Source: Leptolyngbyaceae cyanobacterium clean351
Lineage (GTDB): Bacteria > Cyanobacteriota > Cyanobacteriia > DAIDHW01
Assembly (NCBI GenBank): GCA_027451865.1
Contig: DAIDHW010000001.1
Location: forward strand, 372,353-436,352
DNA length: 64,000 bases
Direction: 5' to 3'
Shown: piece after piece, positions 7,673 to 28,691 of the stretch
Layout: every line of letters begins with the position of its first letter
How positions within the stretch are numbered: the first letter of the stretch is position 1
Program-made: the position numbers and the translations under genes
The notes under the pieces: generated by a model
The model's input: the letters and a program-made list of their open reading frames with translations, nothing else
Database searches by the model: none
What the model was told of the DNA's origin: nothing

Positions 7673-9295
7673 ATGCACCGGAGGGCCATGGGGCGGGTGA
7701 AAAACTTACGGGCGCTAGTGTGTCGCTGGGTCTGTCTGCTAGTCATTCTGGGTACTCTCGGCTGCCGTCCCGACTTGGGGGAGGTACCGGGGCGTGTATC
7801 CCTGGGCACCACTGCCCAAGTGCGCACCCTCGACCCGGCCGATGCCTACGAAATCTTTGCAGGAGCGGTCCTTTATAACCTAGGGGACCGCCTCTACACC
7901 TACGCCCCAGGCACCAGTGAACTTGTACCCCAGCTGGCTACTGCCCTACCGGAGGTGAGTGCCGACGGTCTGACCTACCGAATTCCCCTGCGCCAAGGGG
8001 TCCTCTTCCACGACGGCACCCCCTTTAACGCCTCGGCCATGGCTTTTTCCCTGCAAAGGTTCATAGCTAATGGGGGCCAGCCGAGCTTTCTGCTGAGCGA
8101 ACCCATTGCTAAGGTCCAGGCTACAGGCCCCTACGAATTGACCATCGTCCTGAAGAAACCCTTTGGGGCTTTTCCGGCTTTATTGGCTTTCTCTGGGGCC
8201 TGTGCTGTCTCGCCCCGGGCCTACAGCCTAGGGCCCAACCAGTTCCGTCCCGATACCTTTGTGGGTACTGGGCCCTACCGCTTGGCTGAGTTTGACAACG
8301 ACTCCCTAAAGCTAGACCCCTTCCCCCAGTACTGGGGCCAGAAAGCCCGAAATCAAGGCATAGACATTCAATCCTTCTCCAGCGGGGCTAACCTCTACAG
8401 CGCCTTTCGCACCGCGAGCATTGATCTGGCCTACCAAACCCTAGACCCAGACCAGATCCGTTCCCTGGAGACCGGAGCCCGGCGGGGCCGCTGGCAAATG
8501 GTCCAACACCCAGGGGAAGACATCTACTACTGGACCTTGAACCTGCACAGTCCTCCTTTGGATGACCGCCGCGTGCGCCAAGCTCTGGCCCGGTTGATGA
8601 ACCGGCCATTAATTGATAGGCGGGTCTTTTATGGTCAAGTAAAACCCCTCTACAGCCTGATCCCTACGGTGCTGAGGGCCTCAGAACCGGTGTTTGCCCC
8701 CTACGGGAATGAGCAGACCACCCAGGCTAGGGCGATCCTGACCCAGGCGGGCTACTCCCCTGACCACCCCTTGGATCTAGAGCTGTGGTACCGCTCCAAC
8801 CTGGTGAGCAACGAATTGGCGGTTATGGTGATCAAGGCGTGGATCGAATCTCAGCTGCCGGGGATTGTGGCGGTCAGCTTACACAGTGTCGAGTCCACCA
8901 CCGCCTACCAGAACCTTGACCAGGGAGTATACCCGACCTTCCTGCTGGACTGGACAGCGGACTTTTTGGACCCAGATAGTTACCTACAACCTTTTTTGGC
9001 CTGTGACCAGGGGTCTGAGGCCGCTGGCTGCACCGCAGGTGCCAGCAAGGAGCAGGGTTCCTTCTACTTCAACCCCCAGGTCAACCAACTCATTGACCAG
9101 GAGCGTCGCAGCCACGACCCCCAAAAGCGCCAGGAGGTATTTACCCAGATCCAGACTATCCTGGCCCGGGATATCCCCTTTATTCCCCTCTGGCAGAGCA
9201 AAAACTATCTTTTTGCCCAGGCCAACCTGCGGGGGGTAAGCCTGGAAGTCACCCAAAAGGTGCCCTTTTGGACCCTGGAAAAGCCCCAGAATTAG
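7673..9295 (+). CDS. ABC transporter substrate-binding lipoprotein, family 5
   Basis: 540 residues. A lipobox (LGTLGC) places it on the outer face of the inner membrane as a lipoprotein. The body follows the SBP_bac_5 (DppA/OppA/NikA) pattern: LDPADAYEIFAGAVLYNLGDRLYTY, FHDGTPFNASAMAFSLQRF, VGTGPYRL, the YYWTLNL strand, RRVRQALARLMNR, and near the C-terminus IQTILARDIPFIPLWQSKNY. The family binds oligopeptides, dipeptides or nickel; the ligand cannot be told from sequence. No permease or ATPase genes are nearby, so it must work with a transporter encoded elsewhere. A second member of the family lies at 28692-30428. Start chosen at 7673 because agggggt stands at suitable spacing; an ATG at 7688 is the alternative. 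Confidence 0.88.
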   Translation: MHRRAMGRVKNLRALVCRWVCLLVILGTLGCRPDLGEVPGRVSLGTTAQVRTLDPADAYEIFAGAVLYNLGDRLYTYAPGTSELVPQLATALPEVSADGLTYRIPLRQGVLFHDGTPFNASAMAFSLQRFIANGGQPSFLLSEPIAKVQATGPYELTIVLKKPFGAFPALLAFSGACAVSPRAYSLGPNQFRPDTFVGTGPYRLAEFDNDSLKLDPFPQYWGQKARNQGIDIQSFSSGANLYSAFRTASIDLAYQTLDPDQIRSLETGARRGRWQMVQHPGEDIYYWTLNLHSPPLDDRRVRQALARLMNRPLIDRRVFYGQVKPLYSLIPTVLRASEPVFAPYGNEQTTQARAILTQAGYSPDHPLDLELWYRSNLVSNELAVMVIKAWIESQLPGIVAVSLHSVESTTAYQNLDQGVYPTFLLDWTADFLDPDSYLQPFLACDQGSEAAGCTAGASKEQGSFYFNPQVNQLIDQERRSHDPQKRQEVFTQIQTILARDIPFIPLWQSKNYLFAQANLRGVSLEVTQKVPFWTLEKPQN

Positions 9296-12802: not shown

Positions 12803-14509
12803 ATGTCTAAGCTACTGTGGAAATCGATTTTGGCTGGCCCAGCCGCCCTTGGTGCCACCCTACTAGTTGCCGGTGCTGCCTTTGCAGCCCAGCCCCCCGT
12901 TAAGACTGCCAACCCGGGGGTAAGTCAGACCATGCAAGAGGTCAACTCCCTGACCCAGGCTGACAACACCATTGCCCAGGTGACCTCCGTTTCCCAGCTG
13001 TCAGACGTGCAGCCGACGGACTGGGCCTTCCAAGCTCTCCAGTCCCTGGTGGAGCGCTACGGTTGTATCGCTGGCTACCCTAACGGCACCTTCCGCGGTA
13101 ACCGGGCTATGACCCGCTACGAGTTCGCCGCCGGTCTGAACGCTTGCCTAGACAAGATGAACGAGCTGATTCAGGCCGGGGACAACCAAGTCCGGCAGGA
13201 GGACCTAGCGGCGATCCAAAAGCTCGAGGATGAGTTTGGCCCTGAGCTAGCTGCCCTGCGCGGCCGGGTAGACTCCCTGGAAGCCCGGACAGCTAAGCTG
13301 GAGGCCCAACAATTCTCCACCACCACCAAGCTGACTGCGGAAGTCATCTTTGGCCTAGCGGATGCCAGCAGCATCAATGGCAACAATAACCAAGCCGTAT
13401 TCCAGAGCCGGGTCCGGTTGCTGTTTAACACCAGCTTCACCGGTAAGGACCTGTTGGAAACCCGGTTGACCTACAATAATGCCCCCCTGTTTGGAATCAA
13501 TGCCCCTGGCACTGGTTCTGTAACCGGTGAGGGTCGGCTGACCTACCAGGGTGGCACAGGCCCGGTCAGCGTCGACTGGTTGGCTTACTTCCTGCCCATC
13601 GGTAAGAAGGCCCAACTGTACGTGGCAGCCGTCGGCGGTCTGCACAGCGACTACCTGATCACTACGGCTAACCCCTACAACGAAGGGTACGGCGGTGGTA
13701 GTGGCGCCCTCAGCTACTTTGCCCAAGACAACTCCATCTACGACATCGGTGGTGGGACAGGGGCAGCCTTTAGCTACAACTTCACCCCAGTGGTCGGGTT
13801 CAACATCGGTTATCTAGCCGGCGATGACGTCAGTTCTGCCGCCGTCCCGAGCAATACCCCAGGTATTCCTGGTGTTACTAGCCATGGTAACGGCCTATTC
13901 AACGGCGGTTATGCGGGCCTGGCCCAGTTGAGCTTCCAGCCCTTCAAGGGGAATCTGAAGATCGCCCTGACCTACGTTAACGCCTATGCTGCCCCCGGGT
14001 CCTCCATCTTTAACTACGGTGGCAGTGGCGGTACCGGAGTAGTCGGGACGACCCTGGCTAACTTCCCTGGTAGTGGTGTTATTGGGGCGAGCACAGGTAC
14101 CCAGACCAACTCCTACGCCCTATCTGCTTCCTACCAGTTCACCCCCCACTTTGTGGTCAGCGCCTGGGGTGACTACACCAACGCCCGCATCGCCCACCCA
14201 GCGGCTCTGGGTCTGGTGAACGGCACCGGTGACATCTGGGCCTACGCCCTGTCCCTTGCCTTCCCCGATGCTTTTGTCAAGGGTAACCTGGCAGGCTTCA
14301 TCGTGGGGGCTGAGCCTTACCTGGCTAACTCCAAGTCGATCATTGCTGGCTCTGGTAACAAGGTGCCCATCCACATTGAGGGCTACTACAAGTTCCAGGT
14401 CAACGACTTTATCTCTGTCACCCCGGGGATCATCTACCTGGTCCACCCCGACCAAACCAGTGGTCCAGGGGCGGTGATCGGTACCATCCGCACTACCTTC
14501 ACCTTCTAA
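12803..14509 (+). CDS. SLH-domain OprB-type porin, copy 1 (barrel type A)
   Basis: 568 residues with a signal peptide (1-29, ending AFA). An SLH domain (about 62-122: QLSDVQPTDWAFQALQSLVERY, then GYPNGTFRGNRAMTRYEFAAGLNACL) anchors the protein to peptidoglycan-linked polysaccharide. A coiled coil follows (about 125-172), then a carbohydrate-selective OprB-type beta-barrel ending in the porin-like TTFTF. Cyanobacterial outer membranes are rich in such porins, which pass small solutes and inorganic ions. This is the first of five tandem paralogues. Its SLH/coiled-coil module is almost identical at DNA level to copy 2, and its barrel belongs with copies 2 and 3. A ggaga-type ribosome site precedes the ATG and a strong terminator follows at 14541. 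Confidence 0.93.
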   Translation: MSKLLWKSILAGPAALGATLLVAGAAFAAQPPVKTANPGVSQTMQEVNSLTQADNTIAQVTSVSQLSDVQPTDWAFQALQSLVERYGCIAGYPNGTFRGNRAMTRYEFAAGLNACLDKMNELIQAGDNQVRQEDLAAIQKLEDEFGPELAALRGRVDSLEARTAKLEAQQFSTTTKLTAEVIFGLADASSINGNNNQAVFQSRVRLLFNTSFTGKDLLETRLTYNNAPLFGINAPGTGSVTGEGRLTYQGGTGPVSVDWLAYFLPIGKKAQLYVAAVGGLHSDYLITTANPYNEGYGGGSGALSYFAQDNSIYDIGGGTGAAFSYNFTPVVGFNIGYLAGDDVSSAAVPSNTPGIPGVTSHGNGLFNGGYAGLAQLSFQPFKGNLKIALTYVNAYAAPGSSIFNYGGSGGTGVVGTTLANFPGSGVIGASTGTQTNSYALSASYQFTPHFVVSAWGDYTNARIAHPAALGLVNGTGDIWAYALSLAFPDAFVKGNLAGFIVGAEPYLANSKSIIAGSGNKVPIHIEGYYKFQVNDFISVTPGIIYLVHPDQTSGPGAVIGTIRTTFTF

Positions 14510-14540
14510 CCTGGCTTGACCTAACTTAGAAACTCTCCCG

Positions 14541-14568
14541 CCCCCGGCCTTGTGCCGGGGGTTTTTTT
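14541..14568 (+). terminator. Rho-independent terminator after porin 1
   Basis: CCCCCGGC and GCCGGGGG enclose a 5-base loop and are followed by seven T residues: a canonical intrinsic terminator 31 nt after the stop codon. Confidence 0.9.
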
Positions 14569-14579
14569 GTGGGCTTCCT

Positions 14580-15100
14580 CCCTACGTCTCCCTAGCCCTC
14601 TGGTCTCCCTAAGACCAGCCACAGCAGCCAAACTCCCTCAAGCTTACTATTTGTCCTAGGGTCTGTAGCATTGATAGTCACTACTAGAATTATTTTTCAA
14701 CACCTATTAGATGGCTTATGTCAAAGATTTAAAACCTTTATTAAGGGTATTAGAATATACTTATTTTTCTCTTAACTTAATCTGATTGCTATCTTAGAAA
14801 TATCTCAAAAACTATCTTTTAGACATATAAGAAAGTCTCTATGAGTAATGTAGTTAATTCCTAGAAAGCACACCAAGGAGGGTTATGTCAAGTTCAAAGA
14901 ATATATTTAGAAGCTCTTATAAGCAATCAAGATTTTATTTGAAGTATAGAGCAAGTAAGCTTCAAGTAGTTTATTTTTGCCTACACCGCCATCTATTCAG
15001 TGCATTGAAAGCCCCTATCAATAATCCATAGATCACATTCAATTTCCGTAGGATGATAGGTCCATCGGTGATTGATACCAACCTTGATTTCTTGAGGAGT
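14580..15100. other. AT-rich island between porins 1 and 2
   Basis: From about 14640 to 15080 the base composition swings to clearly AT-rich, with runs such as aattatttttcaacacc and ttaacttaatctgattgc, in a window that is otherwise GC-rich. It contains a 48-codon ORF at 14885-15031. The remainder is either the porin 2 upstream region or acquired DNA; no insertion-sequence ends were recognised. Confidence 0.6.
14885..15031 (+). CDS. Small AT-rich ORF, basic 48-aa protein, unknown
   Basis: A perfect Shine-Dalgarno sequence, AAGGAGG (14875-14881), stands 3 nt before the ATG. The 48 codons run to TAG and encode a basic peptide starting MSSSKNIFRSSYKQSRFYLK, with AGA, ATA, TTT and TAT codons unlike the neighbouring genes. 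No signal peptide, membrane segment or known motif is visible. The strong ribosome site is the main argument for translation; the composition suggests foreign or relaxed sequence. I do not recognise a family. Confidence 0.45.
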   Translation: MSSSKNIFRSSYKQSRFYLKYRASKLQVVYFCLHRHLFSALKAPINNP

Positions 15101-15104
15101 GACT

Positions 15105-16805
15105 ATGCCCGCAAACAACTTTTGGTTTAGGTCCCTGCTCGTAAGCCCCCTGGGGGTGGCTGCTTCCCTCTTGGTGCGCCTACCAGCCCTGGCGGGGACT
15201 GTTCCGGCCCCGGCCCCCGTGGTGCCGCTCTCCCAGATTGCTAGCGCTGACTCGAGCTCCCTGACCGCCCAGGTGACCTCCGTTTCCCAGCTGTCAGACG
15301 TGCAGCCGACGGACTGGGCCTTCCAAGCCCTCCAGTCCCTGGTGGAGCGCTACGGTTGCATCGCTGGCTACCCTAACGGCACCTTCCGCGGCAATCGAGC
15401 CATGACCCGCTACGAGTTCGCCGCCGGTCTGAACGCTTGCCTAGACAAGATGAACGAACTGATTCAGGCTGGGGACAACCAAGTCCGGCAAGAGGACCTA
15501 GCGGCGATCCAAAAGCTTGAGGATGAGTTTGGCCCTGAGCTAGCTGCCCTGCGCGGCCGGGTAGATTCCCTAGAAGCTCGCACCGCTAAGCTAGAAGCCC
15601 AACAATTCTCCACCACCACCAAGCTGACCGGCGAAGTCATCTTTGGCCCGGCTGATGCGAGCAGTATCAACGGCAACAATAACCAAGCGGTATTCCAAAG
15701 CCGGGTCCGGTTGTCCTTTAATACCAGCTTTACCGGTAAGGACCTGTTGGTGACCCGGTTACTCTACAGCAACGCCCCCCTGTTTGGGATCAATGCCCCT
15801 GGCACTGGTTCTGTAACCGGTGAGGGCCGGCTGACCTACCAGGAGGGGGTTACTCCCGTCACTGTCGACTGGTTGGCTTACTACCTACCCCTGGGTAAAA
15901 AAGCTCAACTGTTCCTGTCCGCTACAGGCAGCTTTCACGCTGACTACGTAATCACCACCGCTAACCCCTACAACGATGGGTACACCGGCGGCAATGGCTC
16001 CCTGAGTTTCTGGGCAGCCGACAACTCGATCTACTTTATCGGGGGCGGGACTGGGGCAGCTTTCACCTATAACTTCAGTAAGGTGATCGGTTTGAACCTC
16101 GGCTACCTAGCCGGCGATAACACCAGTTCGGCGGCAGTCCCCGGTAACACCCCGGGGATACCCAGTGTTACTAGCCATGGCAACGGCCTGTTTAACGGTG
16201 CCTATTCTGGCCTGGCTCAGTTGAGTTTCCAGCCTGACCACGGCAACCTGAAGATTGCCTTGATCTATATGAATGCCTACGCCACCCCTGGATCCTCAAT
16301 CTTTAACGCCGGGATCACTGGGGATGCCACCGGTCTGGTGGGGACGACTCTAGCTAACTTTCCTGGCAGTGGCACCGTTGGTGTGAGCACGGGTACCCAG
16401 ACCAACTCCTACGCCCTCTCTGCTTCCTACCAGTTCACCCCCCACTTTGTGGTCAGCGCCTGGGGCGACTACACCAACGCCCGCATCGCCCACCCGGCAG
16501 CCCTGGGTTTGACCCACGGAACAGGGGATATCTGGGCCTACGCCTTGTCCCTGGCCTTCCCTGATGCTCTAGTTAAGGGTAACTTGGCGGGCTTCATCGT
16601 GGGGGCTGAGCCCTACTTAGCTAACTCCAAGTCAATTATCCCCGGCGCTGGCAACAAGGTGCCCATCCACATCGAGGGCTACTACAAGTTCCAGGTCAAT
16701 GACTTTATCTCCGTCACCCCCGGGATCATTTACCTAGTCCACCCCGACCAAACCAGTGGTCCAGGGGCGGTGATCGGTGTCCTGCGCACCACCTTCACCT
16801 TTTAG
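15105..16805 (+). CDS. SLH-domain OprB-type porin, copy 2 (chimeric)
   Basis: 566 residues from the ATG at 15105, which is preceded by GAGGAG at 5-nt spacing; a GTG at 15099 lies inside that Shine-Dalgarno and is unlikely. The domains run as in copy 1: signal peptide, SLH, coiled coil, barrel, terminal TTFTF. The signal peptide (NNFWFRSLL..PLGVAASLL..RLPALAGTVP) matches copies 4 and 5, while the barrel matches copy 1 closely, including GIPSVTSHGNGLFNG and PHFVVSAWGDYTNARIAHPAALGL. The gene is thus a mosaic of the two porin subtypes. Function as an outer-membrane channel is inferred from the family. Confidence 0.93.
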   Translation: MPANNFWFRSLLVSPLGVAASLLVRLPALAGTVPAPAPVVPLSQIASADSSSLTAQVTSVSQLSDVQPTDWAFQALQSLVERYGCIAGYPNGTFRGNRAMTRYEFAAGLNACLDKMNELIQAGDNQVRQEDLAAIQKLEDEFGPELAALRGRVDSLEARTAKLEAQQFSTTTKLTGEVIFGPADASSINGNNNQAVFQSRVRLSFNTSFTGKDLLVTRLLYSNAPLFGINAPGTGSVTGEGRLTYQEGVTPVTVDWLAYYLPLGKKAQLFLSATGSFHADYVITTANPYNDGYTGGNGSLSFWAADNSIYFIGGGTGAAFTYNFSKVIGLNLGYLAGDNTSSAAVPGNTPGIPSVTSHGNGLFNGAYSGLAQLSFQPDHGNLKIALIYMNAYATPGSSIFNAGITGDATGLVGTTLANFPGSGTVGVSTGTQTNSYALSASYQFTPHFVVSAWGDYTNARIAHPAALGLTHGTGDIWAYALSLAFPDALVKGNLAGFIVGAEPYLANSKSIIPGAGNKVPIHIEGYYKFQVNDFISVTPGIIYLVHPDQTSGPGAVIGVLRTTFTF

Positions 16806-16807
16806 CC

Positions 16808-16870
16808 TAACTTGCAGCCCCCAACCGGGGGCCCTAGGGCTGGCAAGTTAGTGTTTGTGTTTTATTCTGT
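16808..16870 (+). terminator. Probable terminator after porin 2
   Basis: A long hairpin pairs AACTTGC-AGCCC with GGGCT-G-GCAAGTT, with an inner GCCCCC/GGGGGC stem, and is followed by a T-rich tail (gtgtttgtgttttattct). The T-run is interrupted, so the call is moderate. Confidence 0.65.
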
Positions 16871-16920
16871 CTCCCCCTGCCGCCGGACGGGGGGACAGCA
16901 GGATATTTGGTTGAGGTTTT

Positions 16921-16999
16921 CTCGCAAACATGGCCCTGGGAACGGACCATGGTATGTTCGCGGAGGCTAACCATTTCAGGGTGCCGACTGGTTCCCAGG
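16921..16999 (+). promoter_or_regulatory. Inverted repeats upstream of porin 3
   Basis: CCTGGGAAC (16935-16943) is exactly complementary to GTTCCCAGG (16991-16999). Within the same span cgcaaacatgg and ccatggtatgttcgcg form a second, imperfect inverted repeat. They could be part of a structured 5' leader or a regulator-binding site, 57 bp or more before the porin 3 start. The function is not known. Confidence 0.35.
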
Positions 17000-17055
17000 C
17001 AGATTCAGTCATCCCCCATCCCTGATTAATACCTCATCAACACCTAGGAAACTCC

Positions 17056-18648
17056 ATGCCGCCAAAGTGGTACTTGGCTGGATTAATTAGCCCCCTCCTC
17101 CTGGCCACCGTCCTGCCCGCCGCCCCGGGCTGGGCCCAGACCCAATCTCCTTCCCCAGTTACCTCCGTCTCCCAGTTAGCCGATGTGCAACCGACCGACT
17201 GGGCCTTCCAAGCTCTCCAGTCCCTGGTAGAGCGCTACGGTTGTATTGCCGGCTACCCTAACAGCACCTTCCGCGGCAACCGGGCCATGACCCGCTACGA
17301 GTTCGCCGCTGGACTGAATGCTTGCTTGAACAAGATGAGCGAGCTGATCCAAGCTGGGGACAACCAGGTGCGTCAGGAAGACTTGGCAGCCCTGCAAAAG
17401 CTCGAAGATGAGTTTAACCCTGAGCTAGCGGCCCTGCACGGCCGGGTTGACTCCCTGGAAGCTCGCACCGCTAAGCTAGAAGCCCAACAATTTTCCCCCA
17501 CCACCAAGCTGACCGGTACAGTCGTCTTTGGCCTAGCGGATGCAAGCAGCATCAACGGCAACAGCAATCAAACCGTCTTCCAGAGTCGGGTGCGCCTCCT
17601 ATTTAGCACCAGCTTCACGGGCCAAGACCTGCTCTCAACCCGTTTAACCTACAGTAATTCCCCTCTGTTTGGCCTTACCAGTGATGCGGCGGGGAATTTT
17701 ACCGGAGAGGGACGCCTATCCTTCCAGGACGGCACCGGCCCCTTGTCCATCGACTGGCTAGCCTACCAGTTCCCCATCGGTGAAAAAGCCCAGCTCTACG
17801 TAGCCGCGGTAGGTGCCCAGCACGAAGACTACGTAATCACCACCGCTAGCCCCAACGACGACGAAAACAGTGGCGCCTTGAGCTACTTCGGCCAATACAA
17901 CGCCATTTTCGACATCGGGGGTGACACGGGAGTGGGCTTTACCTACAACTTCACCCCCGTGCTTGGCTTCAATCTGGGTTACCTAGCCGGGGCTGATGTT
18001 TCCAACCCGAGTTCTCCCCTGCCTAACAATGGCCTTTTCAACGGCACCTACGGGGCCCTGGCCCAACTAAGCTTCCAGCCCCACAAGGGCTGGCTGCAAG
18101 TGGCTCTCACCTACGTGAACGCCTACGCGGCCCCAGGGGAGTCGCTTTTTAATTACGGTGGGAGTGATGGGACTGGGATCGTCGGCACTACCCTGGCTAA
18201 TTTCCCCGGCAGCGGTTCAGTGGGCTTTGGTACCGGTGTTCAGAGCAATTCCTACGGTCTTTCCGCCGCCTACCAGTTCACTCCCCACCTGATCCTGAGC
18301 GCCTGGGGTGACTATACTAACGCCCAGATCACCCACCCGGCCTCCCTAGGTCTGAACCAGGGAACTGGGGACATCTGGGCTTATGCCCTGGCCCTTAACT
18401 TCCCCGACGCCTTCCGTAAGGGCAATATGGCCAGCCTGATCCTGGGGGCTGAACCCTACCTGGCTAACTCTAAATCGATTCTGGCCGGGTCCGGGAACCT
18501 CGTACCAGTTCACCTTGAGGGTTACTACCGGTTCCAGGTCAATGACTTTATTTCGGTCACCCCCGGGATCATTTACCTGGTCCATCCCGACCAAAACCCC
18601 GGGCCAGGAGCGGTGATTGGGGCGGTGAGGACTACCTTCACCTTCTAG
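17056..18648 (+). CDS. SLH-domain OprB-type porin, copy 3 (barrel type A)
   Basis: 530 residues, the shortest of the five. Its signal peptide (ending GWAQ) is unrelated to the others, and only a short linker precedes the SLH domain (about 35-95). A coiled coil follows, then a type A barrel that is shorter in one extracellular loop than copies 1 and 2 (VSNPSSPLPNNGLFNG in place of the longer segment with GIPGVTSHGNGLFNG). It ends TTFTF. Start ATG with tagga upstream. A decayed copy of its 3' end and downstream leader exists at 20936-21310, showing that this segment was part of a past tandem duplication. Confidence 0.92.
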   Translation: MPPKWYLAGLISPLLLATVLPAAPGWAQTQSPSPVTSVSQLADVQPTDWAFQALQSLVERYGCIAGYPNSTFRGNRAMTRYEFAAGLNACLNKMSELIQAGDNQVRQEDLAALQKLEDEFNPELAALHGRVDSLEARTAKLEAQQFSPTTKLTGTVVFGLADASSINGNSNQTVFQSRVRLLFSTSFTGQDLLSTRLTYSNSPLFGLTSDAAGNFTGEGRLSFQDGTGPLSIDWLAYQFPIGEKAQLYVAAVGAQHEDYVITTASPNDDENSGALSYFGQYNAIFDIGGDTGVGFTYNFTPVLGFNLGYLAGADVSNPSSPLPNNGLFNGTYGALAQLSFQPHKGWLQVALTYVNAYAAPGESLFNYGGSDGTGIVGTTLANFPGSGSVGFGTGVQSNSYGLSAAYQFTPHLILSAWGDYTNAQITHPASLGLNQGTGDIWAYALALNFPDAFRKGNMASLILGAEPYLANSKSILAGSGNLVPVHLEGYYRFQVNDFISVTPGIIYLVHPDQNPGPGAVIGAVRTTFTF

Positions 18649-18669
18649 GCTAGGCCAGATGAGGTGCAG

Positions 18670-18714
18670 AACATAGCTAGCGTGCAGAAATTTCACGCCC
18701 GACCTATGTTTTCC
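18670..18714 (+). terminator. Hairpin after porin 3
   Basis: AACATAG (18670-18676) pairs with CTATGTT (18704-18710), and inner GCGTG pairs with CACGC around a cagaaattt loop; a short ttttcc tail follows. The same element is kept, partly decayed, at about 21122-21172. It may be a terminator or an RNA structure in the leader of porin 4. Confidence 0.5.
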
Positions 18715-18865
18715 AGGCGACATAGATTTTTGGGGACCTCATGCTACTGTTTCTAGTGAAAACTTAAGGGGGCAAGTGCCGCGCATTAGTTTAGTAAAAC
18801 TAGTGCCCCCCTCTCAGCTGATTGACCCCTTAAATTTCTTAACTCTGGTGTGAGGATCTGTAGTG

Positions 18866-20566
18866 ATGAATAGCTTTTGGTTCAAGGCCTTGGTAGCTAG
18901 CCCCGTGGCCGTGGCTGCCTCCCTGCTTTTCCGGCTGCCCGCCCTCGCCGGGACTGTCCCCCCTCCCGTAGTACCCATCTCCCAGATTGCCACCGCCGAC
19001 TCTGGCCAGCTGACTGCCCAGGTCACCTCAGTCTCTCAACTGTCTGACGTGCAACCTACCGACTGGGCCTTCCAAGCCCTCCAATCCCTAGTGGAGCGCT
19101 ACGGTTGTATCGCCGGCTATCCTAACGGCACCTTCCGCGGTAACCGGGCCATGACTCGGTATGAGTTTGCTGCCGGTCTGAATGCCTGCTTGAACAAGAT
19201 GAACGAGCTGATCGAAGCTGGGGATAACCAGGTGCGTCAGGAAGACTTGGCGGCTCTGCAAAAGCTCGAGGATGAGTTTGGCCCTGAGCTAGCGGCCCTG
19301 CGCGGCCGGGTTGACTCCCTTGAAGCTCGCACCGCTAAGCTAGAAGCCCAACAGTTCTCCACCACCACCAAACTGAGTGGGGAAGTCGTCTTCGCCTTGG
19401 CTGGGGCCTTCGGTAACACCATTGCCGTCAATAGTGGTAAGCCCGCCTCCACCACTGGCATTCCCAACAACTTAATCTTCGGTGACCGGGTCCGCTTAAA
19501 CTTCGTTACTAGCTTTAACGGCCGGGACCAATTGTTGACCCGCTTGGAAGCCAATGATTTCTCTCCCTTCAGTGGTAGTGTGACTGGCACCAACGAAACC
19601 CGCTTGGGCTTTGATGGTATTCCTGCCGGCACCGCGCCAAACGGCGTCATTGTTGGACGCTTGTGGTACGCTACTCCTATTGGTGACCACTTCAAGCTTT
19701 GGGCCATCGCCACGGGTGGTGAATTTAACGACGTCTTCTACAACTACAACCCCTACTTCCAGGATGGTGGCACTGGCGCCCTCTCTCGCTTCGGCCGGTT
19801 TAGCTCCATCTACCGCTTTGACGGCACCGGCAGCGGTTCTGGCACTGGTGGTACTGGCTTTGCCTTCACCTACCGGTTTAACCGACACGCAGCATTTGAC
19901 GCAGGCTACATGGCCAAGAACGCTGAGTTCTCCAGCTCTACGGGGGCTCCGACCACCAGCTTCAGTCTCTTTGGCAGCACCTACGAGGCCCTGGCCCAGA
20001 TAGATGTCACTCCGGTTAAGAAGTTCCAGTTTGGGCTCACCTACGCCCACACCTACTTCCAAGGAGGGGACGTCAGCGTCACCAGCGCCACCGGCACCAA
20101 CTTTGCGGCGGTGCCCTTCCCGACCACCGCTGGGGGGAGTGTCGGTCAGCCTAGCTCCTCCGACGCCTACGGTTTGGAGTTCAACTGGTCCCCCGTCCGT
20201 CACTTCAACCTGTCCGGCTGGGTGGACTACACCACCGTCGTCGCCCAAAAGGGTACCGCTGGTCTGTTCCCCACTGGCGCCCATGCTAACCTGATCACCT
20301 GGGCTGCTGCCCTGGCCTTCCCGGATCTGGGTCGTCGCGGCAACGTAGGTGGGATTATCTTCGGTCAACCCGGTACTCTGGAAGCCAGCACCTACGGAGC
20401 CCAAGTTGACTCGGCCAACACCTACCAGCTGGAGATGCTGTACAAGTACCGAGTGACGGATAACATCTTCTTCACCCCTGGTGCTTTTGTGATCTTCAAT
20501 CCCAACGGTAACAGCGCCAATAGTGACATCTACGTGGCTGCTGTGCGTACCACCTTCCACTTCTAA
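18866..20566 (+). CDS. SLH-domain OprB-type porin, copy 4 (barrel type B)
   Basis: 566 residues from the ATG at 18866 (gagga Shine-Dalgarno at 18852; GTG at 18863 possible). Signal peptide of the NSFWFKALVASPVAVAASLL type, then the shared SLH domain and coiled coil, then a second barrel type with FGNTIAVNSGKPASTTGIPN, FVTSFNGRDQLLTRLEAND and the Gly-rich GTGSGSGTGGTGFAFTYRFN segment. It ends TTFHF. From about 19960 through the stop and into the terminator the DNA is nearly identical to copy 5, the footprint of recent duplication or gene conversion. Role as an outer-membrane channel for small solutes is inferred from the family. Confidence 0.93.
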   Translation: MNSFWFKALVASPVAVAASLLFRLPALAGTVPPPVVPISQIATADSGQLTAQVTSVSQLSDVQPTDWAFQALQSLVERYGCIAGYPNGTFRGNRAMTRYEFAAGLNACLNKMNELIEAGDNQVRQEDLAALQKLEDEFGPELAALRGRVDSLEARTAKLEAQQFSTTTKLSGEVVFALAGAFGNTIAVNSGKPASTTGIPNNLIFGDRVRLNFVTSFNGRDQLLTRLEANDFSPFSGSVTGTNETRLGFDGIPAGTAPNGVIVGRLWYATPIGDHFKLWAIATGGEFNDVFYNYNPYFQDGGTGALSRFGRFSSIYRFDGTGSGSGTGGTGFAFTYRFNRHAAFDAGYMAKNAEFSSSTGAPTTSFSLFGSTYEALAQIDVTPVKKFQFGLTYAHTYFQGGDVSVTSATGTNFAAVPFPTTAGGSVGQPSSSDAYGLEFNWSPVRHFNLSGWVDYTTVVAQKGTAGLFPTGAHANLITWAAALAFPDLGRRGNVGGIIFGQPGTLEASTYGAQVDSANTYQLEMLYKYRVTDNIFFTPGAFVIFNPNGNSANSDIYVAAVRTTFHF

Positions 20567-20586
20567 ACCCGCCTGAGGTTAACTCG

Positions 20587-20621
20587 AACCCCCTGGGAGC
20601 CTGGCCCCCGGGGGGTTTTTT
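20587..20621 (+). terminator. Rho-independent terminator after porin 4
   Basis: AACCCCC(TGGG) pairs with the C-rich/GGGGGGTT arm and is followed by a run of six T. The same element follows porin 5. Confidence 0.85.
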
Positions 20622-20640
20622 GTGGGCTTAGAGAGTCAGC

Positions 20641-20800
20641 ATCCACGGCTAGGCTAAACACCACTGGTACAAAGAGCAGGGTAAAAAGCACCGATACCAC
20701 TAGGGGTTTTTTGCAGCAGACCCGGTTCCTAGGGCCAGCTGATTAGTGTCCTAAAATAACCCCCTCTTTGACCACCAACAGACGGAGGGGAATTTGGGCC
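20641..20800 (-). pseudogene. Decayed fragment of the RND transporter 3' end
   Basis: This stretch aligns by eye with the 3' end of the intact RND gene at 23157-23488, in the same orientation and order but with internal deletions. Matching blocks are cacggctaggctaaacacca, then agcagggtaaa, accgatacc, gggttttttgcag against gggcttttgcag, gattagtgt against gattggtgt, and tttgaccacca. Reading frames are broken. The segment sits immediately after porin 4 exactly as the intact RND gene sits after porin 5, so it marks the end of a duplicated unit. Confidence 0.75.
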
Positions 20801-20935
20801 GCTAGCCCCTAAGGAAAAGTCTTCAAAATTGGCGGGGCGATTTAATTTATTTCTGCTGTAAAAGAGCAAAAAATGTACCTTGATCTAAGGAAATGCAGTC
20901 ATTTCGTGGATTTCTTTTGCAGAATACTTGTGCTT
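20801..20935. other. Junction between two decayed fragments
   Basis: About 135 bp of moderately AT-rich sequence with no gene and no clear repeat. It separates the RND remnant from the porin 3 remnant and so should contain the breakpoint of the ancestral tandem duplication. Confidence 0.5.
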
Positions 20936-21101
20936 GCCTAAACTGATTCTGGCCGGGTCTGCTAACCTCCTACCGATTACTATTCAGGGTTAGTGCTGGT
21001 CCAGCTCAATGATTTTATTACGGTCACCCCGGGGATTATTTATTTAGTTCATTGCAACTAACTTTGGATCGGGGGCAGGGAGGACTACCTTCACCTTCTA
21101 G
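20936..21101 (+). pseudogene. Decayed 3' end of a type A porin
   Basis: It aligns with the last 170-190 bp of porin 3 (18460-18648): gattctggccgggtc, then caatgattttattacggtcacc, then ggggattatttatttagttcat, and the final aggactaccttcacc before TAG at 21099. Deletions and frameshifts have removed coding capacity. The leader downstream (to 21335) is also homologous to the porin 3-porin 4 spacer, including the hairpin and the ribosome site used by porin 5. Confidence 0.8.
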
Positions 21102-21335
21102 GCTGGATGGGATGAAGTTGAGACATATCTAGAGTGCAGGAATTTCACCTGCGGGGGGTAATATGTTTTCCGGACTACATAAATTCCTGGGGTCCTCATT
21201 CTATCGTCTATGTCTGTTGTTTCTGAGGGGGGCCCAGAGGTCCAGGTATTTTGTGCTAGTCGAATAAACCTAGTGCTCCCCTGTCAGCTGATTGCCCCCT
21301 TCAATTTCTTAACCCTGGTGTGAGGATCTGTAGTG

Positions 21336-23045
21336 ATGAATAGCTTGATGAATAGCTTTTGGTTCAAGGCCTTGGTAGCTAGCCCCGTGGCTGTGGCTGC
21401 CTCCCTGCTTTTCCGGCTGCCCGCCCTTGCCGGGACTGTCCCCCCTCCCGTAGTCCCAGTCTCCCAGATTGCTGCTAACTCGGGTCAGTTGACGGCCCAA
21501 GTCACCTCCGTTTCTCAACTGTCTGACGTGCAACCTACCGACTGGGCCTTCCAAGCCCTCCAATCCCTAGTGGAGCGCTACGGTTGTATCGCCGGCTACC
21601 CCAACGGTACCTTCCGCGGTAACCGGGCCATGACTCGGTATGAGTTCGCCGCCGGTTTGAATGCTTGCTTGAACAAGATGAACGAGCTGATCGAAGCTGG
21701 GGATAACCAGGTGCGTCAGGAAGACTTGGCGGCCCTGCAAAAGCTCGAGGATGAGTTTGGCCCTGAGCTAGCGGCCCTGCGCGGCCGGGTAGACTCCCTG
21801 GAAGCTCGCACCGCCAAGCTAGAAGACCAGCAGTTCTCCACCACTACTAAGCTGAGTGGGTCAGTAGTCTTTGCTATAGCCGGGGCCTTCGGTAACACCC
21901 TCGCCGTTAATAGTGGTAAGCCTGCCTCCACCACTGGCATCCCCAATAATCTGATCTTTGGTGACCGGATCCGCTTGAACTTCGTCACCAGCTTCAACGG
22001 CCGGGACCAGTTGTTGACCCGCTTAGAAGCTAACGACTTCACTCCCTTCAATGGCCCCGTGACCGGCACCAACGAAACCCGTCTCGGTTTTGACGGGATC
22101 CCCGCCGGTGCAGGTCCTAACACCGTGATCATTGGTCAGTTGGTGTATGACACCCCCATTGGTGACCACTTCAAACTCTGGGCAATCGCCACCGGTGGCG
22201 AATTTGATGCCGTCTTCAACAACTACAACCCCTACTTCCAGGCCAACGGCACTGGCGCCCTCTCCCGTTTCAGTCGATTTAGCTCCATCTACCGCTTTGA
22301 CGGCACCGGCAGCGGTTCTGGCACCGGCGGCACAGGCTTTGCCTTCACCTACCGGTTCAACCAGCACGTGGCGGTAGACGCGGGCTACATGGCCAAGAAT
22401 GCCGAGTTCCCCAACGCCGTTGGCGCTCCGACCACCAGCTTCAGTCTCTTCGGCAGCACCTACGAGGCCCTGGCCCAGATAGATGTCACTCCGGTTAAGA
22501 AGTTCCAGTTTGGGCTCACCTACGCCCACACCTACTTCCAAGGAGGGGACGTCAGCGTCACCAGCGCCACCGGCACCAACTTTGCGGCGGTGCCCTTCCC
22601 GACCACCGCTGGGGGGAGTGTCGGTCAGCCTAGCTCCTCCGACGCCTACGGTTTGGAGTTCAACTGGTCCCCCGTCCGTCACTTCAACCTGTCCGGCTGG
22701 GTGGACTACACCACCGTCGTCGCCCAAAAGGGTACCGCTGGTCTGTTCCCCACTGGCGCCCATGCTAACCTGATCACCTGGGCCGCTGCCCTGGCCTTCC
22801 CGGATCTGGGTCGTCGCGGCAACGTAGGTGGGATTATCTTCGGTCAACCCGGTACTCTGGAAGCCAGCACCTACGGAGCCCAAGTTGACTCGGCCAACAC
22901 CTACCAGCTGGAGATGCTGTACAAGTACCGAGTGACGGATAACATCTTCTTCACCCCTGGTGCTTTTGTGATCTTCAATCCCAACGGTAACAGCGCCAAT
23001 AGTGACATCTACGTGGCTGCTGTGCGTACCACCTTCCACTTCTAA
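21336..23045 (+). CDS. SLH-domain OprB-type porin, copy 5 (barrel type B)
   Basis: 569 residues. The N-terminus contains a 12-base tandem duplication (atgaatagcttg repeated imperfectly) relative to copy 4, giving MNSLMNSFWFKAL; start at 21336 or 21348, with the gagga site favouring 21336. SLH and coiled coil as in the other copies, then a type B barrel. The first two thirds of the barrel differ from copy 4 at many codons, whereas the last 600 or so bases plus the terminator are virtually identical. It is followed convergently by the RND gene. Role as an outer-membrane channel is inferred from the family. Confidence 0.93.
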   Translation: MNSLMNSFWFKALVASPVAVAASLLFRLPALAGTVPPPVVPVSQIAANSGQLTAQVTSVSQLSDVQPTDWAFQALQSLVERYGCIAGYPNGTFRGNRAMTRYEFAAGLNACLNKMNELIEAGDNQVRQEDLAALQKLEDEFGPELAALRGRVDSLEARTAKLEDQQFSTTTKLSGSVVFAIAGAFGNTLAVNSGKPASTTGIPNNLIFGDRIRLNFVTSFNGRDQLLTRLEANDFTPFNGPVTGTNETRLGFDGIPAGAGPNTVIIGQLVYDTPIGDHFKLWAIATGGEFDAVFNNYNPYFQANGTGALSRFSRFSSIYRFDGTGSGSGTGGTGFAFTYRFNQHVAVDAGYMAKNAEFPNAVGAPTTSFSLFGSTYEALAQIDVTPVKKFQFGLTYAHTYFQGGDVSVTSATGTNFAAVPFPTTAGGSVGQPSSSDAYGLEFNWSPVRHFNLSGWVDYTTVVAQKGTAGLFPTGAHANLITWAAALAFPDLGRRGNVGGIIFGQPGTLEASTYGAQVDSANTYQLEMLYKYRVTDNIFFTPGAFVIFNPNGNSANSDIYVAAVRTTFHF

Positions 23046-23065
23046 ACCCGCCTGAGGTTAACTCG

Positions 23066-23099
23066 AACCCCCTGGGAGCCTGGCCCCCGGGGGGGTTTT
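23066..23099 (+). terminator. Terminator after porin 5
   Basis: AACCCCC(TGGG) pairs with the C-rich/GGGGGGGTT arm and is followed by TTTT. It is the same element as at 20587 with one more G and a shorter T-run. It lies 8 bp before the convergent end of the RND gene and may serve both. Confidence 0.75.
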
Positions 23100-23106
23100 A
23101 GCTGGC

Positions 23107-26100
23107 TTAGGGGACTGGAGAATCAACCGGCAGCTGCCTAGCCCCAGCGGGCTTACCCACGGCTAGGCTAAACACCACCGGCACGAACAGCAGGGTAAAG
23201 AGAGTCGAAACACATAACCCACCAATTACCGATACCGCCAAGGGCTTTTGCAGTTCAGACCCAGCTCCTAAACCCAAGGCTAAGGGCAGCAGTCCTAAAA
23301 TTGTGCAGAGGGTCGTCATCAGAATTGGCCGCAGACGAGCCCGCCCCGCCCGCAGCAGAGCCTCCCGGAGGGGATATTCCTGGGCACGCAGTTGATTGGT
23401 GTACTCAAGCAAAATAATCCCGTTTTTGACCACCAGACCCACAAGCAAAACAATCCCCATGAGGGAAGAGACGTTGAGGGGGATCTGGGTCAACCTTAAG
23501 GCCACCACCACCCCAAGCAAGGCTAAGGGGACAGTCGTGAAAATTACCAAGGGCTGGCGGAAGGAGCGAAACTGCAACAGCAAAATCAGGTACACCAAGA
23601 GCAGGGCCAAGGCCAATACCTGGAGCAACTGCCAAAAGGCCTGCTGTTGACTTTGGTAAAGACCACCAATGTCTAGGGAGTAACCAGCCGGGAGGTTCAG
23701 GGGCTGCAAACGGCGCCGGAGGGAGGATACCACTGACCCCAGGTCCTGCCCCTGTAGGTCAGCGTTCAAGCCCACGTAGCGCTGTTGATTTTCCCTGAGG
23801 ATTTCGGCCTGGCTATCGCGATCCACCACTTGGGCGATCTCCCCGAGGGGTACTAGGGCATGATTAGATCCGGCAATGGGGATCTGGAGGATTTGCTGCC
23901 GGTCTTGGCGAGCACCGGCTGGGAGCCGGACCCGAATATCCACCAGGCGCTCCCCCTGGCGCAGTTGGCCAATTACCTGGCCAAACAGGGCATTTTGCAC
24001 CTGCAGGGCCACATCAGCCTGAGTAAGGCCTAGCTGGCCCGCAGCTACCGGGTCAACCACTAAGTCTAGTTCAGGGACCGCCACACTACCGACCTGGGCT
24101 AAGTCCACCAGCCCTGGCACCGCCTTGATCCGCTGGGCGATCTGGTCACTCAAGGTCCCCAGCTGCTGTGAGTCACTGCCAAATAATCGCAGGGCAATAG
24201 GGCTGGCACTACCAGACAGGTCATCTAATTCATCCTGGAGGATCTGGTGAAAATTCACCTGCAGCTGAGGCACAAGGGCAGCAATGTCTTGGCGTTGCTG
24301 GTCGATGACAGCAAATACACTGCGGTGTCGCTGGCTCTGGGGCTGCAGGATCACCTGAATGTCTCCCGTATTGGGTTCAGTGGCAAACAGGCCATTTTGG
24401 GCCCCAGTCCGGCGGGTCCAGGTGACCACCTCTGGGGTTTTGGCTAGAACCTGCTCAATGCGCTCAGCTAAAGCACTAGTTTGCTGCAGGCTAGTACCGG
24501 CGGGGGCAACGTAGTCAACAATATAACTCCCCTCATCAAAAGCTGGCAGGAAGTCATTCCCTAAACCCTGAAACAGTGTAATTCCCAGCCCCAATAAGCC
24601 CACAGCCATCGCCACTAACCACCGGGGATGGTCTAGGGCCCACCCCAGGAGGTCAGTATAACCTTGGTCCAGACGCACTAGCATCCTTGGCTCAGAGTGG
24701 GAGGTACCGCCCTGGAGGACTCGGGCGGCCAGGAGGGGAGTTAGCACTAGGGCTAGAAGCAAAGAAAAAATCACCGCCGCTGCTAGGGTGATAGTCAAGC
24801 TGATAAAAAACTCCCCCGCTACTCCCGAAAGGAGGCCCAAGGGCAGAAATACCGCCACCGTGGTGGCCGTGGAGCTGATCACCGGCCCGGCTAGCTCGCC
24901 CATGGCTGCGGCCACTGCCCTTTGGGGGTCAGCCTGGTGCTGCAGCTGGCGGTCAATGTTCTCGATCACCACAATTGCATCATCGATCACCAGGCCGATC
25001 GCCACGGCCAAACCTCCCAAGGACATGAGGTTTAGGCTCTCCCCCACCAAGTACAAGACGCAAAAGGCCGCCAGGGCTGACAAGGGGATAGTCAAGGCAG
25101 CAATAAAGGTACTGCGCCACTCCCGGAGAAAAGCGTACAAGACCACTATGATCAGGGCAATGCCAATCAAGATTGAGTCCCGGACATTGGCGATGGCATC
25201 GACTACCAAGCCCGATTCGTCGTAGGCCGGCTCAATTTCCAGGCCCGGAGGGAGGCTAGGGCGTAGGCGTTCCCACTCTCGGGCCACCCCCTGGCCAACT
25301 GCCACCACGTTGCTGTAGGGTTGGCGGAACACATTCAGGGTCAGGCCGGGCCGACCGTGGACGCTGACAATCTGGGTGGGGTCAGCCTCACCTAGGGTGA
25401 CGGTGGCCACATCCCGCAGGAATAGGGGTTTTCCGTCCCCTCGGCTGGTAATCACCACATTCAAGAGGGCTTGGGGGTCCGTGGGCTGTCCATTGGCAAT
25501 TAAGAGATTCTGCTGGTCGAGGCGGTCTAACTTACCCACCGCTAGGGTTTGACTCGACTGCTGGAGGGCATTGGAGACCTCAGGCAAGCTCAGGGAGTAG
25601 TTTTTGAGCTTGACCGGGTCTACTTGCACCTCCACCTCGGCTGCGTTGCCCCCTTGGATCTGAATACGTGATACCCCGGGCACGCGGGTTAGCCGGGGCT
25701 GAATTTGATAGCGGGCAATTGCGTCTAGGTCCGTCGGCAGGAGGGTGGAGCTGCTGAGGTTATAGCTGAGGACTGGGAAGATGGCGGGGGTAATTCGTTC
25801 AATGTCCAGGGTGATGCCGGCCGGTAGTGCACTCTGAATCTGGGTTACCCGGGCTTGCACCTGCTGGAGGGCCTGGTCCATATTGGTGCCCGGCTGGAAG
25901 TTGACAGAAATTTCCGTAGAGCCGCGGATGGTCTTAGATTTGACCCAATCTACCCCGGGGACTTGACCTACCTCAGCCTCTAGAAGACGCGTGGCACTCA
26001 AAACCACCTGCTCAGCTGAGAGGTCCCCCAAGCCACCAATCACCGTGATGCGGGCAAAGGTCAGCTCCGGGTAGACAGCACTAGGGAGGACTGTAAAGGC

Positions 26101-26184
26101 AGCGGCGCCGGCCAGAGCAATCAGGAGAAAAAGCAGATAGATGCCCTTGGCTTGGTGCTGCAGCAGGCGGGTAAACTTCAGCAT
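23107..26184 (-). CDS. RND efflux transporter, inner-membrane permease
   Basis: 1,025 residues with the two-fold RND layout: TM1 (LLFLLIALAGAAAFTVLP), a large periplasmic loop (PVLSYNL, RVPGVSRIQIQGG), a TM2-6 block with the diagnostic GLVIDDAIVVIENIDR segment carrying the Asp pair used for proton relay, a second periplasmic loop and a TM8-12 block (VLLVGLVVKNGIILLEYTN). It is a proton-driven exporter that works in a tripartite complex with the adaptor and TolC-type channel encoded just upstream. Substrates (drugs, lipids or metals) cannot be read from sequence; Met/His-rich metal signatures were not seen. The ATG is 6 nt after the adaptor stop. A decayed copy of its 3' end lies at 20641. Confidence 0.93.
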   Translation of the reverse strand: MLKFTRLLQHQAKGIYLLFLLIALAGAAAFTVLPSAVYPELTFARITVIGGLGDLSAEQVVLSATRLLEAEVGQVPGVDWVKSKTIRGSTEISVNFQPGTNMDQALQQVQARVTQIQSALPAGITLDIERITPAIFPVLSYNLSSSTLLPTDLDAIARYQIQPRLTRVPGVSRIQIQGGNAAEVEVQVDPVKLKNYSLSLPEVSNALQQSSQTLAVGKLDRLDQQNLLIANGQPTDPQALLNVVITSRGDGKPLFLRDVATVTLGEADPTQIVSVHGRPGLTLNVFRQPYSNVVAVGQGVAREWERLRPSLPPGLEIEPAYDESGLVVDAIANVRDSILIGIALIIVVLYAFLREWRSTFIAALTIPLSALAAFCVLYLVGESLNLMSLGGLAVAIGLVIDDAIVVIENIDRQLQHQADPQRAVAAAMGELAGPVISSTATTVAVFLPLGLLSGVAGEFFISLTITLAAAVIFSLLLALVLTPLLAARVLQGGTSHSEPRMLVRLDQGYTDLLGWALDHPRWLVAMAVGLLGLGITLFQGLGNDFLPAFDEGSYIVDYVAPAGTSLQQTSALAERIEQVLAKTPEVVTWTRRTGAQNGLFATEPNTGDIQVILQPQSQRHRSVFAVIDQQRQDIAALVPQLQVNFHQILQDELDDLSGSASPIALRLFGSDSQQLGTLSDQIAQRIKAVPGLVDLAQVGSVAVPELDLVVDPVAAGQLGLTQADVALQVQNALFGQVIGQLRQGERLVDIRVRLPAGARQDRQQILQIPIAGSNHALVPLGEIAQVVDRDSQAEILRENQQRYVGLNADLQGQDLGSVVSSLRRRLQPLNLPAGYSLDIGGLYQSQQQAFWQLLQVLALALLLVYLILLLQFRSFRQPLVIFTTVPLALLGVVVALRLTQIPLNVSSLMGIVLLVGLVVKNGIILLEYTNQLRAQEYPLREALLRAGRARLRPILMTTLCTILGLLPLALGLGAGSELQKPLAVSVIGGLCVSTLFTLLFVPVVFSLAVGKPAGARQLPVDSPVP

Positions 26185-26190
26185 GGGCTC

Positions 26191-27318
26191 CTATCCTTTT
26201 TGAGCGACGATCATAGTTCCATCAGGGAAACCGTAGGCCCCCTGAGCAACGATCAACTCCCCGGCTTGCAGGCCGGCGGTAACCTCAACCTGACCATGGG
26301 ATTTAATCCCGGTTTGGATCGGCACCCGTTTGATCCGTTGATGAGCGTAGACGTAAACAAGCTGCTGGCCGGGGTGGGCCGGGTCCGGCACCAGGGCTGT
26401 TTGGGGAATAGTCAACGCTTGGTCATGGACAGCAGTGACTGCTACCACGCTGACGGCCTGGTTTTCCTTCAGCAGTTCTCCCGGGTTGGGGACGCGGATG
26501 GCTACACTGACCGTGTTACTGGCTGGGTCAACCACCGGGCTGATGGCCGTCACCATCCCCGGGAAAATCCGCCCCGGGTAGGCGGGGGTGGTGATATTGA
26601 CCGATTGACCCGGGTGCAGGTGAGCCTGTTGGTCGGCGGGTAGATGGGCACTCACCAGCACATTTTGCAGGTTAACCACTTGCAAAATGGGGGTGTTAGG
26701 GTCGGTTATGTCTCCTTGATTAAGAAACCGGTGGGCCACCACCCCGGTAAGAGGACTAGTCACTCGGGTGAAGCTAGCCTGGGTCTGGGATTGGTCCTGG
26801 ACCGCTTCAGCCTGCTGGGCCTGGGCCTGGGCAGCCCTTAGTTGGGCCTGGGCACTTTGGTACTGGCTGAGGGCTGCGACCAGGTCTTTGCGGGGAGCAA
26901 TTTTTTCCCCGTAAAGTTGCCGCTGGCGAGCTAGGTTATTGGCCGCCAACAGGAGGGCCGTGCGAGCTTGGGACACCCCGGCTTGGGCCACCTCCAGAGA
27001 AGCGCTGCTTTGGTCTACCTGGGTCTGGGCTACTTGACTATCCAGACGGGCGACGACCTCACCTTGACTCACCCACTGACCCTCTTGGGGAAGAACAGCG
27101 GCCAGCCGCCCAGCCACCGCCGGACTAATTTTCACCGAGTGGTCTGGCAGAGGATTAACGGTACCGCTGAGGGTAATGGTGGCAGTAAGGTTGGCGCGGC
27201 CCACGGAAATCACCGGCAGGGCAACGGGGGCGGGAGAGGCTAACGGGGTAGGAGACTTGGCCTGGCAACCTGCCAGGCACACCACTAACGCTCCCCCGAG
27301 ACCAAGGCGACGGATCAT
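26191..27318 (-). CDS. RND efflux periplasmic adaptor (membrane fusion) lipoprotein
   Basis: 375 residues. Lipobox CLAGC near residue 18 indicates lipid anchoring to the inner membrane. A lipoyl-type half (GRLAAVLPQEGQWVSQGEVVARLD) is split by an alpha-helical hairpin rich in Ala/Gln (about 110-175) and completed by VTSPLTGVVAHRFLNQGD; beta-barrel (VNLQNVLVSAHLPADQ) and membrane-proximal domains follow. It bridges the RND permease and the outer-membrane channel. It sits between those two genes with gaps of 12 and 6 nt, clearly an operon. Start ATG with ggag upstream. Confidence 0.92.
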   Translation of the reverse strand: MIRRLGLGGALVVCLAGCQAKSPTPLASPAPVALPVISVGRANLTATITLSGTVNPLPDHSVKISPAVAGRLAAVLPQEGQWVSQGEVVARLDSQVAQTQVDQSSASLEVAQAGVSQARTALLLAANNLARQRQLYGEKIAPRKDLVAALSQYQSAQAQLRAAQAQAQQAEAVQDQSQTQASFTRVTSPLTGVVAHRFLNQGDITDPNTPILQVVNLQNVLVSAHLPADQQAHLHPGQSVNITTPAYPGRIFPGMVTAISPVVDPASNTVSVAIRVPNPGELLKENQAVSVVAVTAVHDQALTIPQTALVPDPAHPGQQLVYVYAHQRIKRVPIQTGIKSHGQVEVTAGLQAGELIVAQGAYGFPDGTMIVAQKG

Positions 27319-27330
27319 AGTTACTCCAAA

Positions 27331-28605: not shown

Positions 28606-28691
28606 TAGGTCCTCCGGTCTGAATAGACATGGGGTTAGAAACCCACCCCCGTCAGGGACGTCCGACCCCGGGGATTGTTTCCCCTCCAGGC

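Follow-up and report, generated by a model that had tools for sequence, protein, structure and literature searches.

Probable concerted evolution of the wall anchor in a tandem array of five cyanobacterial SLH porins

A tandem array of five SLH porins

Leptolyngbyaceae cyanobacterium clean351, represented by a 2.48-Mb draft assembly of 48 contigs, carries five intact porin genes (g1 to g5) in tandem on the plus strand, at positions 12803-23045 of the 64-kb stretch of contig DAIDHW010000001.1 that was analysed (the window). All five products have SLH (PF00395) and OprB (PF04966) domains above the curated cut-offs and score 488-570 bits over the entire model of the NCBIfam family NF033921 (por_somb), for which the cut-off is 100. 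Their domain order and family score liken them to cyanobacterial SomA, SomB, Slr1841 and Slr1908 (NF033921), and the SLH part also matches the structurally solved SlpA and other SLH proteins. Each protein consists of a leader, a module of 113 codons (339 bp, from leader end to barrel start) in which SLH is followed by a coiled coil, and a C-terminal barrel. We take g1-g5 to belong to the SomA/SomB, OmpM-like family, and the roles of anchor, stalk and channel come from knowledge of that family. In each porin, SLH would thus be expected to fasten the outer membrane to the wall, with the coiled coil as stalk and the barrel as channel. The accessible parts of the published accounts describe the barrel as the channel and the SLH domains as binding to the wall, which in cyanobacteria means to a pyruvylated polymer (PMC10628300, PMC8707739). 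AlphaFold2 models built from five-row alignments were of low confidence, with mean predicted local distance difference test (pLDDT) scores of 31.0 and 30.6.

The genes carry two barrel types, A in g1-g3 and B in g4-g5. This arrangement had been proposed in a preliminary description of the locus, and open reading frames, domain scores and identities all bear it out. In g1 (12803-14509), a leader of its own type (12803-12979) precedes the module (12980-13318) and a type-A barrel (13319-14506). The second gene, g2 (15099-16805; module 15273-15611), combines a type-A barrel (15612-16802) with a leader of the g4/g5 type (15099-15272), and g3 (17056-18648; module 17158-17496) has a third leader type (17056-17157), again with a type-A barrel (17497-18645). 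The type-B genes are g4 (18863-20566; leader 18863-19021, module 19022-19360, barrel 19361-20563) and g5 (21333-23045; leader 21333-21500, module 21501-21839, barrel 21840-23042).

Divergence along these genes is strongly non-uniform between segments; uniform divergence was not seen. Module proteins are 94-100% identical among the five, whereas barrel proteins are 68-85% identical within g1-g3, 93% between g4 and g5, and 34-37% between types. The modules had been called almost identical, which holds for the protein; at the DNA level they are 86-96% identical, and A and B modules merely 86-89%. The mixed make-up of g2 was confirmed: its leader matches those of g4 and g5 with z = 28 and 26 over shuffles, against a weak z = 3.5 for g1 and g2. 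Because the synonymous divergence (dS) of the g2 leader to g4 is about 1.2, this chimera of leader and barrel is old.

A sixth porin, g6, is a diverged paralogue ~16-18 kb to the left of the window (L083:6347-8011; G000:C1:354541-356010). Its barrel is about 50% identical to type A and 32-34% to type B, and its module, whose branch in the tree of modules is long, is 52-54% identical to the modules of the array.

Silent sites, spacers and trees

How much of the similarity of the anchors is due to selection? Purifying selection accounts for most of the close protein similarity of the SLH parts: between A and B copies, nonsynonymous divergence (dN) of the SLH part is 0.007-0.021, but dS is 0.74-1.22. 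Dispersed paralogues elsewhere mostly keep about 80-97% module protein identity despite saturated silent sites, so a conserved SLH protein does not by itself speak for recombination. That argument for a recombining array, made in the preliminary description, is not supported; the case for recombination stands instead on silent-site tracts, on the g2 chimera and on discordant trees with outgroups.

Silent sites were compared in all ten gene pairs by a tract test with 2000 permutations each. Between g1 (12926-13270) and g2 (15234-15563), 87 of 97 silent codons are the same (P = 0.003), and dS is 0.24 in the module versus 0.68 in the barrel. The coiled coil of g3 (17323-17487) shares a tract with g4 (19187-19351; 45 of 50 silent codons the same) and with g5 (21666-21830; 42 of 46), both at P = 0.0005. 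In these two pairs dS is 0.21-0.25 in the coiled coil versus 1.38-1.63 in the barrel (Fisher p = 8.4e-6 for g3-g4 and 1.1e-4 for g3-g5). The 3' parts of g4 (19973-20615) and g5 (22452-23094) form a tract of 643 nt with a single mismatch and 192 of 193 silent codons the same (P = 0.0005), which continues past the stop codon into a terminator-like hairpin. The differences between g4 and g5 are concentrated in the N half of the barrel, where dS is 0.80 as against 0.007 in the C half, and where dN is 0.079, indicating purifying selection. Weaker signals for g1-g5 (P = 0.005), g2-g4 (0.015) and g2-g3 (0.027) are not relied on, and the test was not significant for g1-g3, g1-g4 and g2-g5. Four of the ten pairs (g3-g4, g3-g5, g4-g5 and g1-g2) show the mark of concerted evolution by gene conversion, a bounded tract in which silent sites differ little although the two genes are otherwise more diverged. 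Among the five genes, barrel conversion was seen solely between copies of the same barrel type, and no barrel exchange across types was seen.

The 766-nt spacer between g4 and g5 records a duplication. It starts with a copy of the sequence that follows g5 and continues with a remnant of the 3' end of an RND pump gene (20643-20777, minus strand), in which 18 of 20 residues at 20644-20703 match the pump encoded by the intact gene at 23107-26184. A further remnant (20938-21332, plus strand), comprising the 3' end of a type-A barrel gene and a copy of the g3-g4 spacer, is 71% identical over 412 aligned columns to 18470-18862, and 15 of 17 residues at 21002-21052 match g1. Both the pump and the barrel remnant are still readable as protein, and the repeat search that covered the region was for direct repeats. 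The duplicated unit therefore began in a type-A 3' end, took in g4 and reached into the pump gene. The spacer (71%) and the N half of the barrel have aged and the C half has not, which points to conversion after the duplication.

Do module and barrel share a history? Among the five genes alone, comparing each of the 15 possible topologies by the approximately unbiased (AU) test on SLH, coiled coil, module and the two barrel halves shows no clear conflict. Outgroups were needed because the unrooted five-gene tree cannot place g3 with A or B. Outgroup trees comprised g1-g6 and 44 of 106 other porins drawn at random, with a second set that was the same without g6. In the module tree, g1-g5 form a single clade, with an SH-aLRT support (Shimodaira-Hasegawa-like approximate likelihood ratio test) of 99 with g6 and 100/98.6 in a mixture-model tree without it. 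The barrel data reject this five-gene clade by 153 log units (LG+G4, g6 included; p-AU 2.5e-16). In the barrel tree, g1-g3 group with barrels from other families in a clade of 15 rows supported at 100, and this barrel-A group, its fifteen rows named from the earlier barrel tree, is in turn rejected by the module data (153 log units, p-AU 7.8e-113). Module and barrel therefore differ in history, and the two barrel lineages predate the divergence of cyanobacterial families. The agreement of trees that would speak for independently diverged copies is thus absent once outgroups are included, although within the array the trees do not clearly disagree.

Recurrence in other cyanobacteria

The window genome is the sole representative of its order in the comparison set, and the 38 other genomes are related to it at class level only. 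A first comparison used 17 loci chosen because the listings showed neighbouring hits, with dispersed controls hand-picked from the same listings. A further 40 loci were chosen regardless of neighbours, either from the matches to g4 (the best one or a later one) or as the top hit to the family. The porins compared come from among the matches listed rather than being every porin of each genome, and pairs within one genome are not independent. One pair 2.9 kb apart (in genome G380) was set aside as 'near'.

In 77 dispersed pairs from 26 genomes, the median proportion of differing synonymous sites (pS) is 0.71 in the module versus 0.75 in the barrel. The median barrel-minus-module difference is 0.126 in 32 adjacent same-strand pairs from 21 genomes, versus 0.031 in the dispersed pairs (Mann-Whitney p = 8.4e-5). 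This contrast is also found without the window genome (28 versus 72 pairs, p = 0.0012) and with per-genome means (p = 0.0015 and 0.003). The set was then enlarged by 80 named loci, 8 of which were dropped as the same regions. A nearest-neighbour analysis covered 193 distinct porins of 203: in 9 of 40 adjacent pairs each gene has its nearest module within the pair's own array, which is not true of both barrels, and 1 pair shows the reverse (sign test, 0.021).

The clearest case, G039, has a module pS of 0.01 beside a barrel pS of 0.70 (module 99.7% identical, barrel DNA 53.5%). It belongs to a genus of three genomes (g25) in which leader and barrel identities follow orthologues, whereas in the module within-genome paralogues are closer than orthologues, above all in G039. 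In AU tests for this genus, the module rejects the orthologue topology (p-AU 0.0075) and the barrel rejects the paralogue topology (1.8e-10). The third genome, G053, is without recent conversion, and the modules of its two genes are 82.7% identical. A second genus (g19) gives a similar picture for G018 and G035, by inspection and not by formal test, and G063 does not share it. In the barrel tree of that genus (L081 of G063 compared with L067 and L068), the first tandem porin of G063 falls among the 'b' copies of the other genomes of the genus, and the second among their 'a' copies, so the pairing and order of the porins may have changed. Two porins of G029 (L138:6640-8436 and L139:6857-8608) are about 0.63 Mb apart and have a module pS of 0.25 versus 0.69 in the barrel, which may reflect either conversion between distant genes or a module transferred recently.

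Explanations, known systems and surroundings

We consider it very probable that the anchor evolves in concert by conversion between copies while the old barrels stay distinct. Homologous recombination, mostly non-reciprocal gene conversion and presumably of the RecA type, would copy stretches of the 339-bp module between genes. All copies would face the same wall, and selection for a common anchor would preserve, over about 340 bp, the similarity that homologous recombination needs. The pattern suggests that tracts end near the module borders because leaders and barrels are too diverged. Within one barrel type, conversion would also reach the barrel, as at the 3' ends of g4 and g5. The array itself probably grew by tandem duplication, and the duplication that gave g4 and g5 left the end-point fossils in their spacer. 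The second gene, with its B leader and A barrel and its place between A and B genes, may be the duplication product of one unequal crossover in which the module of an A gene paired with that of a B gene further downstream; the spacers flanking g2 are too diverged to reveal the crossover.

Several observations weigh against concerted evolution of the anchor, or narrow its reach. Silent sites of the SLH part are mostly near saturation between A and B (Fisher test against the barrel, p 0.029-0.38), so most exchange between barrel types happened long ago. As the genome is a 48-contig draft, assembly could account for part of the near-identical 643-bp tract. Elsewhere, individual pairs reach Fisher p < 0.01 in only 10 of 32 adjacent cases with the window included (8 of 28 without it), as do 9 of the 77 dispersed ones; the two proportions differ (Fisher p = 0.017), but adjacency evidently helps without being required. 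Among the loci added later, 1 of 8 new adjacent pairs shows the pattern, that of Nostoc sp. LEGE 06077 (L152; module pS 0.12, barrel 0.66). The modules of four-copy arrays of family f15 (G083, G141 and G257; L078, L079 and L080) are mostly nearest to modules of other genomes. The comparison of loci recovers the excess similarity of modules in adjacent pairs, though in a minority of them. The module had been pictured as a constant hot spot of recombination: it is a recurrent one, but in the majority of tandem pairs elsewhere the module bears no mark of recent conversion.

Purifying selection on the anchor, with barrels free to diverge and no recombination at all, is a very improbable account of the whole pattern. 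It explains the low dN and high dS of the SLH part between A and B, as it does the dispersed paralogues with conserved module proteins at a median pS of 0.71, and it still holds for the greater part of the SLH comparison between A and B. It is refuted for the sharp silent-site tracts in g1/g2, in g3 with g4 and g5, and in g4/g5, and it leaves unexplained why the five modules, but not the barrels, form a lineage-specific clade and why the module of G039 is nearly free of silent differences next to a barrel that is not. Duplication alone, which would give copies of different ages with the youngest parts alike, has the least to recommend it: the spacer fossils do attest at least one tandem duplication, but a single event would give g4 and g5 one age, which the two barrel halves and the 71% spacer contradict, and on the present sequence this account is refuted.

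Is the array instead a dedicated variation system, in which a reservoir of barrels is shuffled behind a shared anchor to alter channel or phage-receptor properties? The g2 chimera and the concentration of g4/g5 differences in the N half of the barrel are in keeping with such a system. However, the five genes are complete with their own starts, truncated copies were not found, exchange of barrels between types was not observed, the variable N half is under purifying selection, and a Pfam scan of seven neighbouring proteins revealed no recombinase. We regard this system as very unlikely, and the earlier notion of a recombining reservoir of channels overreached, although the recombination test that it called for did yield significant tracts. 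Conversion of the anchor between copies could also be part of something broader. Somewhat speculatively, and against our own expectation, SLH and stalk might be an independently evolving cassette with which tandem arrays time and again refit barrels of ancient lineages with the anchor current in their own lineage. If trimers form through the stalk, identical stalks may then permit different barrels to join in mixed trimers on one wall ligand, with conversion keeping the subunits interchangeable.

In many deep-branching bacteria, SLH porins are believed to fasten the outer membrane to the wall (PMC10628300). If anchor and channel evolve separately, whole-porin trees mislead, annotation cannot safely be transferred on overall similarity, and the wall ligand of a lineage can be read from its anchor sequence. 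Separate evolution would also make testable why these bacteria retain several copies of the tether.

Synechocystis has six SLH/OprB porins, tied to ion and iron uptake and to envelope stability (PMC8707739), and a set of such porins is described in Anabaena (PMC9705863). Unlike in those accounts, whose accessible parts do not mention gene conversion, the porins here form a single tandem array of five copies, and conversion tracts run through it. The OmpM proteins of Veillonella, a diderm Firmicute, likewise have an SLH tether, a stalk and a barrel, and three of their four paralogues are in tandem; the likeness is one of description rather than sequence, and the term 'gene conversion' is absent from both main texts as available (PMC10628300, PMC5491611). 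Segmental conversion between neighbouring porin genes has a parallel in Brucella omp2a/omp2b, but there, in the part of the account available, two inverted copies swap barrel segments and one is silent, whereas here it is mainly the wall anchor that is converted and barrel types are unexchanged (PMC7050475). In the open-access literature searched, mostly as titles and the starts of abstracts, we found no earlier report of gene conversion in cyanobacterial SLH porins and no precedent for anchor-restricted conversion in tandem SLH porins; the family itself is known.

The surface-layer (sap) genes of Campylobacter fetus share an anchor part, diverge in the rest and recombine in the shared part. 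They vary by inversion at one promoter and with silent cassettes, unlike the array, in which every copy is a complete gene and all lie on the same strand.

A terminator-like hairpin after g1 (14540-14562, plus strand) suggests separate transcription units; it is a consensus match only, and such sites are no commoner than in shuffles. Promoter-like sites in the array likewise number no more than in shuffles. The 589-nt spacer between g1 and g2 (14510-15098) is AT-rich, at 38% GC versus 58% for the window, and its sole match found is one of 22 nt to the g4-g5 spacer, at a terminator-like site. An RNA family search of the window returned tRNA only, PHROGs gave no match for g1 or g4, and g4 as sole query found no close relatives among named genomes. 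Tail to tail with the porin array, positions 23107-28731 encode the RND efflux pump, a membrane fusion protein and an outer-membrane efflux protein. Family-5 solute-binding proteins flank the region on both sides, at 7673-9295 and 28692-30428.

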